From Lachnospiraceae bacterium NC2004 (GTDB lineage: Bacteria > Bacillota > Clostridia > Lachnospirales > Lachnospiraceae), in NCBI GenBank assembly GCA_000621905.1, contig JHXB01000004.1, positions 126,752 to 190,751 of the forward strand: DNA of 64,000 nt, written 5' to 3'. Below, piece by piece: positions 57,483-64,000 of the stretch. The notes under the pieces are model-generated. The model saw only the letters and a program-made list of their open reading frames with translations, had not been told where the DNA came from and did not search any database. A program made the translations under genes and the position numbers. Numbering within the stretch: the first letter of the stretch is position 1; every line of letters begins with the position of its first letter.

Positions 57483-57517
57483 ATCCCCGGAGCAGATTGT
57501 TCCGGGGATTTTTTTGT
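57483..57517 (+). terminator. Terminator after the PNPOx-fold gene
   Basis: ATCCCCGGA (57483-57491) pairs with TCCGGGGAT (57501-57509), followed by seven T. Confidence 0.85.
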
Positions 57518-57625
57518 TCACTGTTTGGTCACAGATTAACCACAGTTTTTCTACAATTGAACCCTCATTTTGCTAAATCAGGCCTCGTATTATTAACTAA
57601 GATGATAAACAAGGAGGCGATTATT

Positions 57626-58414
57626 ATGGGATATCTTAATACATTTAAGAGATATGAAATGAAGTACATAATTACGGTGGAGCAGAAAAATGACATCATA
57701 AAAATGATGAGTGAATATATGGTCCCGGATGCGTTTGGAATGTCTACCATTAGGAATATTTATTACGATACGGACTCGTATAGATTAATCAGAAATTCAA
57801 TCGACAAGCCGGCATACAAAGAGAAATTAAGGATGAGAAGTTATAAAAGAGTTAACGGTGATGACACGGTATTTGTTGAGCTGAAGAAGAAATATGATAA
57901 GGTGGTATATAAAAGACGACTTGATCTTCCGGAAAAAGAAGCTGTTGAATGGCTTGATGGTGGAAAGACACCGGCTGATTCCCAGATTGCTAGGGAGATA
58001 GATTACTTTGTTAATTATTATGAAACTATATCTCCGACAGCGTTTATAAGCTACGATAGAGAAGCTTTTTTTGCAAATGATGACCACGACTTTAGAATAT
58101 CATTTGACACTAATATCTTAAGCAGAACCTGTGATTTGTCGCTTCAAAAGGAAGCATATGGGGATCGTGTTATTGACAAAGATATGTGTATCATGGAGGT
58201 CAAAGTTTCAAAGGGTATGCCGATGTGGCTTGTAAGATATTTGAGTGAGAATAAGATATATAAGTCTTCATTTTCTAAATACGGAACAGCCTATAAATTA
58301 TATATTGCAAATGAAGTCAAGTTGATTCCTAACTTAGATGAAGTTAAGGTAAAGACAGTAGCATTTGACAAAAAGAATTATTACATTAATAAAGGAGGAG
58401 TGGCTTATGCTTAG
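57626..58414 (+). CDS. VTC-domain protein (polyphosphate-polymerase-like)
   Basis: 262 aa from ATG 57626 after AAGGAGGCGA; the longer frame from 57497 overlaps the terminator and is rejected. The VTC catalytic tunnel residues are recognisable as charged strands: FKRYEMKYIITVEQ, IRNIYYDTDSYRLIR, KEKLRMRSYKRV, VFVELKKKYDKVVYKRR, SYDREAFF and MCIMEVKVSKGMPMWLV. Eukaryotic VTC4 makes polyphosphate from ATP; bacterial homologues of this length are poorly characterised. It overlaps the DUF4956 gene by 8 nt, so they are coupled. Confidence 0.88.
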   Translation: MGYLNTFKRYEMKYIITVEQKNDIIKMMSEYMVPDAFGMSTIRNIYYDTDSYRLIRNSIDKPAYKEKLRMRSYKRVNGDDTVFVELKKKYDKVVYKRRLDLPEKEAVEWLDGGKTPADSQIAREIDYFVNYYETISPTAFISYDREAFFANDDHDFRISFDTNILSRTCDLSLQKEAYGDRVIDKDMCIMEVKVSKGMPMWLVRYLSENKIYKSSFSKYGTAYKLYIANEVKLIPNLDEVKVKTVAFDKKNYYINKGGVAYA

Positions 58415-59105
58415 TACATTATTTAACAGTGTTTTTACGAGCACAGAATTAACAGATTCAATTACAATTATTCCTTTTATTGAGTGCATTGTTTCAGCAC
58501 TTGTGATTGGTCTTATACTTGCAGTTTTATATACATATAAGACCAGATACACTAAGAGTTTTGTTATGACACTTGCCATTCTTCCGGCGGTGGTTGCAGT
58601 TGTAATCATGATGGTTAATGGCAATGTCGGAACCGGAATTGCGGTTGCGGGAGCATTTAGCCTCGTCCGTTTTAGATCTGCTCCGGGTACAGCCAAAGAG
58701 ATCGGAACAATCTTCATCGCGATGGGAGCCGGATTGATTGTAGGAATGGGATATATTATGTACTCGTTTGTTTTTGTGATTATTGTTGGGTTGATGAGTG
58801 TTATCTATACTGCAATTGATTTGGGCGGTAAGAAGGGTGATGCAGTATATAGAACAATCAGAATTACAATTCCTGAGGATCTTGATTATGCAGGGATATT
58901 TGATAATGTTTGGAAAGAGTTTGCCAAGGAAGTCAAACTTACTCAGGTTAAAACAACCAATATGGGAAGCATGTTTAAATTAACCTACGATGTAACTTTG
59001 AAAAATGCCTCGGACGAGAAGAAACTTATTGATCAACTTAGAATTCTTAATGGAAATCTTGAAATATCAAGTTCCCCACAATCAACTGTGTTTGAGGGGC
59101 TGTAG
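58407..59105 (+). CDS. DUF4956 membrane protein
   Basis: 232 aa from ATG 58407 (GGAGGAG upstream, inside the end of the VTC gene). Three to four membrane segments lie in residues about 20-140 (IECIVSALVIGLILAVLY, FVMTLAILPAVVAVVIMMV, SFVFVIIVGLMSVIY), with the family motif NVGTGIAVAGAFSLVRFRSA PGTAKEIG. A cytoplasmic C-terminal domain of about 90 residues follows. DUF4956 genes commonly sit beside VTC-domain genes; it may be the membrane partner that binds or exports the VTC product. Confidence 0.88.
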   Translation: MLSTLFNSVFTSTELTDSITIIPFIECIVSALVIGLILAVLYTYKTRYTKSFVMTLAILPAVVAVVIMMVNGNVGTGIAVAGAFSLVRFRSAPGTAKEIGTIFIAMGAGLIVGMGYIMYSFVFVIIVGLMSVIYTAIDLGGKKGDAVYRTIRITIPEDLDYAGIFDNVWKEFAKEVKLTQVKTTNMGSMFKLTYDVTLKNASDEKKLIDQLRILNGNLEISSSPQSTVFEGL

Positions 59106-59120
59106 AAAGGTGTGATTACT

Positions 59121-60779
59121 ATGAAAGCGAGAGTATTTTTAAATAAACTAACAGCATTTTTATTAACATTTGCAGTGTGTGTAACCTTTAGCGGGTGCAC
59201 CAAGAAATCGGTTGAAGAGAGTACTTTAAATGCTGAGAATTCAACAACGATAGAGGCTATCTCTCCTTATGAAGCATTTACCAAGAGAGATTTATCCGGT
59301 GAATATGATGAAAGTGAAGCGACATGCATAACATTAGATGAAGATAAAATCTTAGTGGACGGTGATGGGGTGGATGTTTCAGACTCTACTGCCACAATCA
59401 CTAAGGAAGGTACATATATTGTGTCGGGAACTATTACTGAAGGACAGCTTCAGGTAAATGTCGGTGATGAGGAAAAGGTTCAGTTGGTCCTTGACGGAGT
59501 GAACATGAGCTGCGAGTCAACCGCACCAATCTATGTTTTAAATGCAGATAAGGTATTTGTAACATTAGCTGAAGGAAGCGAGAATAACTTAGAGGTGACT
59601 AAGGAATTTGTTCAGATTGATGATAACAATATCGATGGTGTAATATTTGCCAAGGATGACATAACTATAAATGGCAGCGGTTCTCTTAATATCTCATCTG
59701 TAAGCGGTCATGGAATAGTGTGTAAGAACGTTCTTAAGATAACCGGCGGAACAATTGATATTACTTCGGCTGAAGACGGACTTCAGGGTGAGGACAGTGT
59801 AAGAATAGCAGATGGAACGATAACTGTAAATGCAGGAGATGACGGTATTCACAGTGATGGCAATCTTCTGATAATTGGAGGAACTGTAAATGTTACAGAG
59901 TCCGAGGAAGGACTTGAGGGTCAGATAATTACTATCACGGACGGGGATGTTAGTGTTGTTGCTAAGGATGACGGTCTAAACGCGACCAGCGGAAGTAGCA
60001 GTTCTGGTGACGCAGGTACGACTAAGATGCAGGAATTTGGAGATATGAGTAAAGAAGGAACACCACCTAAAATGGGTGAGAACGGCGGTACGCCACCGGA
60101 TATGACTGACGGTGGGAGACTTAAAGGACACGGTTTTAGAGGCGATATGGCTTCCGGCGATGGAAGAGCGTTCAAGAAAGAAATGGGTTCCAAAGATGCC
60201 AGGGAATTTAAGAATAATATGGCTTCAGGTAATGCTAAAGGTTTCGGCGGAGGTATGATGGATAGTGATGAGAGTGCTGTCATCAACATTTCCGGAGGAA
60301 CAATCAACATCGATGCAGGTGGCGACGGTGTTGATTCTAATGGTTATATCAACATTTCCGGAGGCGAGATTTATGTTTCCGGACCTACCAACAATGGTAA
60401 CGCTTCTCTTGATTACGGTATCAGTGCAACGATTACGGGCGGAGTTGTTGTGATGGCAGGTTCATCAGGTATGGCTGAGAATTTCTCTGATGACTCAACT
60501 CAAGGTGTAATTCTTGCAAATGTTGACAATCAATCAGAAGATGCTACAATTACATTAACTGATAGTTCAGGAAATGAAATTGTAAGCTATACCCCTTTAA
60601 AATCATATAATTCCGTAATTATAAGTTCGCCTGAAATCACGAGCGGTTCGACCTACTTGCTTACGACAGGACAGACTGAGACTTCGATTACTATGGATAG
60701 TCTGATTTATGGTAGTGGAACAGGAATGAGTGGTATGATGAGGGGTGACCATAAAGGAGATATTGGTGAGCAGCTCTAA
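59121..60779 (+). CDS. Carbohydrate-binding lipoprotein (DUF4353-like beta-helix)
   Basis: 552 aa from ATG 59121 after AAAGGTGTG. Lipoprotein signal with Cys at residue 26 (FAVCVTFSGCTKKS). Repeated beta-helix turns are visible: GSLNISSVSGHGIVCKNVLK, GGTIDITSAEDGLQGEDSV, GTITVNAGDDGIHSDGNLLI, GGTINIDAGGDGVDSNGYIN. A low-complexity Gly/Lys/Met-rich insert lies at about 295-375. This matches DUF4353/carbohydrate-binding proteins, often seen with VTC-DUF4956 or CotH genes. It completes a three-gene operon, presumably its surface-exposed component. The polymerase gene overlaps its end by 14 nt. Confidence 0.85.
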   Translation: MKARVFLNKLTAFLLTFAVCVTFSGCTKKSVEESTLNAENSTTIEAISPYEAFTKRDLSGEYDESEATCITLDEDKILVDGDGVDVSDSTATITKEGTYIVSGTITEGQLQVNVGDEEKVQLVLDGVNMSCESTAPIYVLNADKVFVTLAEGSENNLEVTKEFVQIDDNNIDGVIFAKDDITINGSGSLNISSVSGHGIVCKNVLKITGGTIDITSAEDGLQGEDSVRIADGTITVNAGDDGIHSDGNLLIIGGTVNVTESEEGLEGQIITITDGDVSVVAKDDGLNATSGSSSSGDAGTTKMQEFGDMSKEGTPPKMGENGGTPPDMTDGGRLKGHGFRGDMASGDGRAFKKEMGSKDAREFKNNMASGNAKGFGGGMMDSDESAVINISGGTINIDAGGDGVDSNGYINISGGEIYVSGPTNNGNASLDYGISATITGGVVVMAGSSGMAENFSDDSTQGVILANVDNQSEDATITLTDSSGNEIVSYTPLKSYNSVIISSPEITSGSTYLLTTGQTETSITMDSLIYGSGTGMSGMMRGDHKGDIGEQL

Positions 60780-62187: not shown

Positions 62188-64000
62188 TTATTTCTCTTTA
62201 TACATAAGCCCGTATGTGCCTGGACCGCAATAAATAGCTACGATTGGTGATGCTTCGTAGAATATTATTTTATCAAATGTTATCCATTTGTTTATCTCTT
62301 CTTTTATCCACATTTTGTCGTTGTAAGATATGCCTGCCGTCGGTACGAGAAGTAAGCTTGTATCTATATTGGCTGTTTTAACTTTTGACTTAAATTGCTT
62401 GCGTATAAACGCGCTCCATGCATTTTTCTTGGGACCAAAAAACAAACTCTTAACTTTTAATCGACTGTGCTTAAAGCAAATTACAGGCATAAGACTGAAC
62501 GCTGTTGAAAGCTTATAGTAACGATAACTAATCAAGTTGCCTTCTTTTAAGATATTAGGATTACGGGTTATCATTTGCCCTTTTATATGTTTGCTGATAT
62601 CTTCTATTATGGTTAAAATATCATGGGTATTCATTCCAATCTTAATGCATTTGTTAAGCTCAAGAAGAAGCAGTCCTATACCGCCTGATAAGAGCCCTAC
62701 ATCAATAACGGTTACGCTGTCAAATGTCTTCGATGCCTCTAAAGCCTGCTTATAGTTTGAGCCTCCGACGCCATCCGGAGTCGAGATGTGAATAACTTCA
62801 TTGGCTGTCTTAAGCTTCTCAGAGAAGAACTCCACAAATCTTTCCACGCTTACCTCTTTAACGGCTACAAGATTATCTTCGTCAAGAATACTGTCAATAA
62901 CTGTGTCCGCTGTAATATCGATAGTGTCGTTAAATGTTCCGTTAACGGTCTTAATCTTGGCAGGAATGATATCTATATTATTCTTTCTAAGAAGCTCCTT
63001 AGGCAATGCGGAGCAAATGTCGGTAGTTAAAGCCACTGGGGTCTTGGTAACATGATCATCTCTCCACAAGATTCCGATGTTGTCATCATCAAGTTCTGAC
63101 GCATTAACTGTTACAAGTTCCTTAGGAAGAAGTCTTATCATTTCGGCTTCTAACAACTGACTGTTAACAGGTTTAACGATGTAGCCGTCAAATCCCTCTC
63201 TTGAATAAAGTTCAGCACACTCCGGACCGGCATTTGCAGTTAAAGCTACAATTCTTGCGTTCTTTGAATGACCTCCGGTCTGTGTCTTAATCTTGTGGAA
63301 ACACTCTATACCGTTCATACCCGGCATTTCGTGATCCATAAGAATAACGTTAAATGAAGTCTCAAGAGTCTTCTCCAAAGCCTGCTCTCCGCCTGACGCG
63401 GTGGTAATCTTAACCTGGGTATCTTTGAGAAGTCTCTCAACAACCTTAATATTCATTGGCGTGTCGTCAACAATCAAAATGTTGGCTTCAGGTGCAGTGA
63501 ACTTAGGTGCATATTTCTTCTTGGATGTACCCTTGGCTTTGTTGATATTGATTCGGGCGTCTCCGACAGCATGCAAAGGAAGCTCCACTGTAAATGTCGA
63601 GCCAACATTATACACGCTGTTAACGGTTATGTTACCGCCCATAAGATCTATAAACTGCTTAACGATTGAGAGACCCAAACCGGTACCCTCAATCAGCTTG
63701 TTATTCTCTTCGTCAACTCTCGTAAATGCATCAAAAAGGTAAGGAATACTGTCTTTTTTGATTCCTATACCTGTATCTGTAATGCTGAATATGAGCTTGG
63801 TAATCTCAGGGTCAGATGTATCTTCACACCTTGCCGCTAACTCAACACTTCCCTCGTTGGTATATTTAACGGAGTTGCTAAGCAGATTGATAAGTATCTG
63901 TTTAATTCTTACTTCGTCACCTGTTACCTGTTTAGGCATATCTGGAGCTACATCAATAGAGAACTTAAGACCTTTCTCTTTGGCGCGCACCCATATCATT
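62188..64000 (-). CDS. Hybrid histidine kinase-receiver-DegV fusion (5' truncated by window edge)
   Basis: The frame runs off the right edge, so the sensor and HisKA phosphoacceptor lie outside; at least 603 aa are visible. Numbering from the first visible Met: HATPase about 5-145 with N box QILINLLSNSVKYT, G1 DTGIGI and G2 GTGLGLSI; receiver about 170-295 with ILIVDD, phosphoacceptor Asp222 in VILMDHEMPG and Lys in DGYIVKPV; DegV (EDD) domain about 321-603 with TTDICSALPKELL, ISTPDGVGGSNYKQAL, VTVIDVGLLSGGIG and the terminal GPGTYGLMY. DegV proteins bind fatty acids. This suggests a phosphorelay controlled by, or controlling, fatty-acid binding. Confidence 0.88.
   Translation of the reverse strand, partial: MIWVRAKEKGLKFSIDVAPDMPKQVTGDEVRIKQILINLLSNSVKYTNEGSVELAARCEDTSDPEITKLIFSITDTGIGIKKDSIPYLFDAFTRVDEENNKLIEGTGLGLSIVKQFIDLMGGNITVNSVYNVGSTFTVELPLHAVGDARININKAKGTSKKKYAPKFTAPEANILIVDDTPMNIKVVERLLKDTQVKITTASGGEQALEKTLETSFNVILMDHEMPGMNGIECFHKIKTQTGGHSKNARIVALTANAGPECAELYSREGFDGYIVKPVNSQLLEAEMIRLLPKELVTVNASELDDDNIGILWRDDHVTKTPVALTTDICSALPKELLRKNNIDIIPAKIKTVNGTFNDTIDITADTVIDSILDEDNLVAVKEVSVERFVEFFSEKLKTANEVIHISTPDGVGGSNYKQALEASKTFDSVTVIDVGLLSGGIGLLLLELNKCIKIGMNTHDILTIIEDISKHIKGQMITRNPNILKEGNLISYRYYKLSTAFSLMPVICFKHSRLKVKSLFFGPKKNAWSAFIRKQFKSKVKTANIDTSLLLVPTAGISYNDKMWIKEEINKWITFDKIIFYEASPIVAIYCGPGTYGLMYKEK

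Follow-up and report, generated by a model that had tools for sequence, protein, structure and literature searches.

What is a domain of the FakB/DegV family doing at the end of a sensor kinase? The question arises from a gene that lies partly within a 64,000-nucleotide stretch of the Lachnospiraceae bacterium NC2004 genome (contig JHXB01000004.1), called here the window. A sequence-only reading of the window had recognized a HATPase domain, a receiver with Asp222 and a full-length DegV domain in a single frame, and had proposed that a two-component system senses fatty-acid supply directly through this fusion. Our results uphold the architecture, and suggest that a FakB-like carrier has been detached from fatty acid kinase and reused as a signalling domain.

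The kinase-DegV gene and its copies in the genome

The frame runs unbroken on the minus strand from position 62188 to the right edge of the window and on to the contig equivalent of 64875. The full gene (L009:2940-5627:-) encodes 895 amino acids, and the window carries its 3' two thirds. Extension to the right, where the sequence-only reading had expected a sensor and HisKA, recovered both: about five N-terminal membrane segments, predicted from hydropathy only, are followed in order by HisKA, HATPase, receiver and full-length DegV (Table 1). All four Pfam matches, including those to the three profiles that had been proposed for searching (PF02645, PF00072 and PF02518), exceed the curated cut-offs. 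Asp514 of the whole protein, the receiver phospho-acceptor, is Asp222 of the 603-residue window frame. The marks of a hybrid histidine kinase, namely the HisKA His, the HATPase domain and the receiver Asp and Lys, are all present, and by its domains and motifs the product is a hybrid histidine kinase, for which autophosphorylation and phosphotransfer are predicted. The order of TM region, HisKA, HATPase_c and REC, together with the catalytic motifs, is that of hybrid kinases of the BarA, TorS and ArcB kind, which are the best generic NCBIfam matches, but DegV here replaces or precedes the terminal Hpt, and no NCBIfam equivalog cut-off is reached.

Table 1. Features of the kinase-DegV gene (window positions; residue numbers refer to the 895-residue protein)
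Feature	Position	Strand	Basis or remark
Hybrid kinase-DegV gene, 3' part	62188..64000	-	Rest, up to the equivalent of 64875, outside the window
DegV domain, residues 613-895, FakB fold	62191..63039	-	Pfam PF02645 (4.5e-24; 85.7 bits against a cut-off of 27; residues 614-894, profile positions 2-279 of 280); AlphaFold model; PDB matches
REC-DegV linker	63040..63144	-	Model pLDDT <50 mid-linker
Receiver domain (Response_reg), residues 466-577, Asp514	63145..63480	-	Pfam PF00072 (4.1e-22)
HATPase_c domain, residues 319-435	63571..63921	-	Pfam PF02518 (6.6e-27)
HisKA, residues 208-272, phospho-site His217	Equivalent of 64060-64254, beyond the window edge	-	Pfam PF00512 (7.1e-19)

A DegV search of the genome found nine domains: four stand-alone, four fused to kinases and one split case. 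The fusions are of 895, 901, 887 and 1140 amino acids, each with four to five predicted N-terminal membrane segments. The domain order of the window gene is repeated in two paralogous genes and again in a third, of 1140 residues, that adds a C-terminal Hpt. Immediately 5' of each fusion, on the same strand, another membrane kinase is encoded, which contains REC and in most cases Hpt. In the split version, the gene for a HisKA-HATPase-REC kinase, itself preceded by a REC-REC-HD-GYP gene, ends where that for a 485-residue DegV-Hpt protein begins. All five phosphorelay DegV copies therefore have a partner kinase with REC immediately before them.

Distribution of the fused architecture

Among 397 genomes sampled from the family to which the window belongs, at least 67 have a DegV match within an open frame of at least 700 residues. 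In a 398-genome sample of the phylum, long DegV frames were found only in members of the family, and none outside it, among the candidates scored; at most six candidates were scored per genome, and the fusion counts are therefore lower bounds. In a collection of named genomes, about 25 loci matched across receiver, linker and DegV, almost all of them from Lachnospiraceae. Because the same order occurs both in paralogues and in this many family genomes, one of them with the gene on a single 3.19-Mb contig (G408), an assembly error, frameshift or chimeric join, any of which could have produced the single frame artificially, is ruled out. The open-access literature, to which the search was confined, yielded no description of a DegV-kinase fusion.

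Across 52 fused proteins, the HisKA, G2 and receiver motifs are found in 49 to 52; the N-box pattern used, which matched eight, was too strict to be informative. The linker between REC and DegV is nearly constant in length, at 29-36 residues.

Two candidate fusions outside the family were rejected. A 580-residue frame in G492 consists of an ordinary DegV and, upstream of it, an extension of low complexity, and the G054 protein is a Dak2-DegV protein of different architecture. The latter (L167:4100-5893), 597 residues long, joins the Dak2 and middle domains of FakA to a true DegV, and is possibly a natural FakA-FakB fusion.

Fold and ligand contacts of the DegV domain

AlphaFold models of the REC-DegV part of the window protein and of a relative (L015) have mean pLDDT of 85-86, with a disordered linker. 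The window model matches FakB2 (4x9x) by Foldseek with an E-value of 1e-20 and a TM score of 0.87 by target length; the L015 model superimposes on FakB2 with Z 32.0 and 2.2 A over 264 residues. FakB2 and the T. thermophilus structure 2dt8 are the best PDB matches, and other fatty-acid-binding DegV structures match also. The domain is thus predicted to keep the two-domain EDD/DegV (FakB) fold, and the models give no sign of the missing lipid-binding fold that would have told against the sequence-only reading. Strongly hydrophobic positions are retained in 58 of 68 columns. Because fold and hydrophobic core are kept, the domain may still bind some lipid.

The whole DegV fold is common to the window domain and the FakB/DegV family (PF02645, TIGR00762), which includes FakB1 and FakB2 of Staphylococcus aureus. 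The window domain differs in being fused to kinase and receiver, in a protein of 895 rather than about 280 residues, and the phosphorelay DegVs as a clade differ in that the FakA-docking and catalytic arginines and the headgroup His are replaced. The NCBIfam FakB1 model, with a cut-off of 350, gives 55 bits for the split DegV-Hpt member; the stand-alone DegVs of the genome likewise fall below the cut-off.

In FakB1, Thr62, Ser95, Ser171 and His270 form a carboxylate network; Arg173 belongs to the latch, takes part in the reaction with FakA and is needed for phosphorylation by that enzyme; and binding to FakA and to the membrane depends on Arg205 (PMC8892158, PMC9136124). Both arginines are reported as essential and completely conserved (PMC8892158, PMC9136124). 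In an alignment anchored on FakB2, with the correspondence (FakB1/FakB2) Thr62/T61, Ser95/S93, Arg173/R170, Arg205/R202 and His270/H266, we compared 57 phosphorelay DegVs (51 kinase-fused, six linked or rearranged) with 34 stand-alone DegVs, a non-random set in which the closest relatives, as ranked by profile score, were joined by the genome's own four. Position 61 is Ser or Thr in 49 of 57 phosphorelay domains, against 34 of 34 stand-alone; Ser93 is kept in 36 against all 34, and Arg170 in 22 against all 34. The FakA-docking Arg202 survives in a single phosphorelay domain (32 of 34 stand-alone; alignment here is anchored by a following Gly common to both classes). His266, found in 33 of 34 stand-alone proteins, is likewise kept once, and is Asn in 54 of the 57. 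Position 200, Lys in 31 of the 34, is aliphatic in most fused DegVs, and across the clade the FakA- and membrane-contact patch at 200 and 202 has changed from Lys/Arg to aliphatic or aromatic residues. The window copy has V, G, L, F and Y at the five positions T61, S93, R170, R202 and H266, every FakB contact tested being changed, although the alignment is least sure next to gaps near residue 93 and, in this copy, at residues 61 and 170.

Sequence and fold both identify the phosphorelay domain as a DegV, but it lacks the FakB marks tested. From these substitutions, it is very unlikely that a fused DegV serves FakA. The genome does encode one FakA (L014, 591 residues), for which the sequence-only reading had suggested a search, and the three of its four stand-alone DegVs that keep both arginines and the His could, judging by those residues, serve it. 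Of the original fatty-acid-sensing proposal, the FakB-fold DegV conserved within a phosphorelay stands, but the ligand claim finds only partial support: fatty-acid binding in the manner of FakB and sensing of fatty-acid supply are not upheld in the form proposed, the carboxylate network and both arginines being altered across the clade. The near-fixed Asn266, together with the common Ser/Thr at 61, suggests a polar site that has been kept but changed.

Evolutionary history

In a maximum-likelihood tree, midpoint-rooted for drawing, all phosphorelay DegVs fall in one clade with support 100/99, which rules out independent recruitment in different lineages. Its deepest branch holds two separate DegV genes (L165, L166), each directly behind a HisKA-HATPase-REC-Hpt kinase, and both DegVs already have Asn266 and a Phe at 202. 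This fits a history in which recruitment into the operon and change of the Fak contacts came first and fusion second; alternatively, the fusion may have come early and been undone in the L165/L166 branch. Later changes produced split members (L012, L127, L151) and a rearranged one, L153, with DegV in front. This last protein (L153:1808-6544, genome G416), of 1578 residues, has an N-terminal DegV, two Cache-type sensor stretches and HisKA-HATPase-REC-Hpt, the reverse of the window gene's order. Of the genome's five copies, that in the window has diverged furthest and sits on a long branch of 1.23 changes per column.

The DegV domain is under purifying selection in relatives: dN/dS is 0.06-0.16 in ortholog pairs whose dS could be measured and was not very small, several of these dS values being near saturation. 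In most pairs DegV evolves faster than the kinase domains. The pair L013/L125 is too close to inform on dN/dS. Its dS (L013:6814-10236 against L125:5825-9247) is about 0.03, and since two other pairs between the same genomes give about 1.1, recent exchange of this locus is likely.

Gene neighbourhood

At 56 loci with flanking sequence, a HisKA-HATPase-REC(-Hpt) kinase stands immediately upstream in almost every case; loci without one are mostly at contig ends or have seemingly broken frames. In the NC2004 genome the partner kinase usually carries an Hpt, a domain for which the sequence-only reading had suggested a search. The window locus has no adjacent response regulator. A REC-HD protein precedes the partner kinase in about 16 of the 56 loci, and a single receiver does so in others. 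Most of these REC-HD regulators have intact HD and HHExxDGxGYP motifs, as do the REC-HD-GYP c-di-GMP phosphodiesterases of kinase operons; here they stand upstream of a DegV kinase pair. One upstream regulator is a GGDEF-REC-HD-GYP protein, and the NC2004 genome encodes 34 GGDEF domains. Because of these three observations, a c-di-GMP output can reasonably be inferred for part of the family, though not for the window locus alone.

No fatty-acid gene recurs next to the cassette at the flanked loci. Among neighbours without a signalling role, the one that recurs most is an AgcS amino-acid symporter, found downstream in L013, L026-L029, L036, L125, L128 and L151, mostly beside the DegV-Hpt kinase class.

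A role for the DegV domain

Our first choice for the family, to which we give about an even chance, is that lipid occupancy of the acyl pocket is an intracellular input to the kinase. Beyond the architecture, predicted fold, gene order, residue changes, single clade and purifying selection shown above, the model we infer extends to the lipid ligand, the direction of control, the route of phosphate, the c-di-GMP output and the order of evolutionary steps. A Lachnospiraceae phosphorelay would have recruited DegV as a separate gene beside a HisKA-HATPase-REC-Hpt kinase, and a later fusion would have placed it after the receiver of another kinase, one bound to the membrane. Service to fatty acid kinase would have been lost, with hydrophobic side chains replacing the basic residues that dock FakA, constraint on the catalytic Arg relaxed, and Asn taking the place of the headgroup His. 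DegV would now be a tethered intracellular input domain, its acyl pocket occupied by a fatty acid or other acyl compound, and occupancy would alter how far the receiver and kinase next to the domain are phosphorylated. Phosphate would pass to the Hpt of the partner kinase, or to the C-terminal Hpt of the long members, and then to a response regulator, in many loci a protein of the HD-GYP cyclic-di-GMP phosphodiesterase type. The majority of members have probably kept a response to lipid; for the window copy this is least certain.

Several observations weigh against lipid input. The window copy, on its long branch, has none of the five FakB contacts tested; the cassette is accompanied by the AgcS symporter instead of a recurrent fatty-acid gene; sensing may in reality fall to the N-terminal membrane region; and the window locus lacks an adjacent response regulator. 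In addition, a receiver followed by an effector domain is the order of response regulators, and REC-DegV has the same order.

The loss of all five contacts in the window copy would suit our second choice, a ligand-free DegV acting as a docking or dimerisation platform that unites the kinase, receiver and Hpt of a two-kinase complex. The aliphatic and aromatic residues at positions 200 and 202 are as expected of a new protein interface, and DegV is found at the N-terminal or the C-terminal end of kinases as well as in DegV-Hpt proteins. A pure scaffold, however, needs neither Asn266 nor Ser/Thr at 61, both so widely kept, and the hydrophobic interior is retained; we regard this explanation as possible but rather unlikely. 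That DegV is a drifting passenger, with the N-terminal membrane region driving signalling, is improbable: the predicted membrane segments of the genome's four fused kinases and the faster evolution of DegV agree with it, but the full-length domain held at a near-constant linker in 52 fused proteins, and its low dN/dS, do not. Slightly more improbable still is DegV as an output, whose lipid loading or release would be altered by receiver phosphorylation to control fatty-acid use via FakA, since the response-regulator-like domain order and the FakA in the genome are outweighed by the scarcity of both essential FakB arginines and by the three stand-alone DegVs that could serve FakA.

If the lipid input reading holds, the family may, more tentatively, form a Lachnospiraceae-specific relay class in which a former fatty-acid carrier is a cytosolic lipid receptor of altered headgroup specificity (Asn for His), reporting lipid state to c-di-GMP turnover. 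To our knowledge, few kinases sense lipids in the cytosol. In these common inhabitants of gut and rumen the fold of a carrier has entered relays, with as many as five copies in one genome, and the residue changes offer a clear and cheap test of DegV domains as receptors.

Elsewhere in the window, at 57497-60779 on the plus strand, a VTC-domain protein, a DUF4956 membrane protein and a Cthe_2159 carbohydrate-binding protein are encoded in a row.
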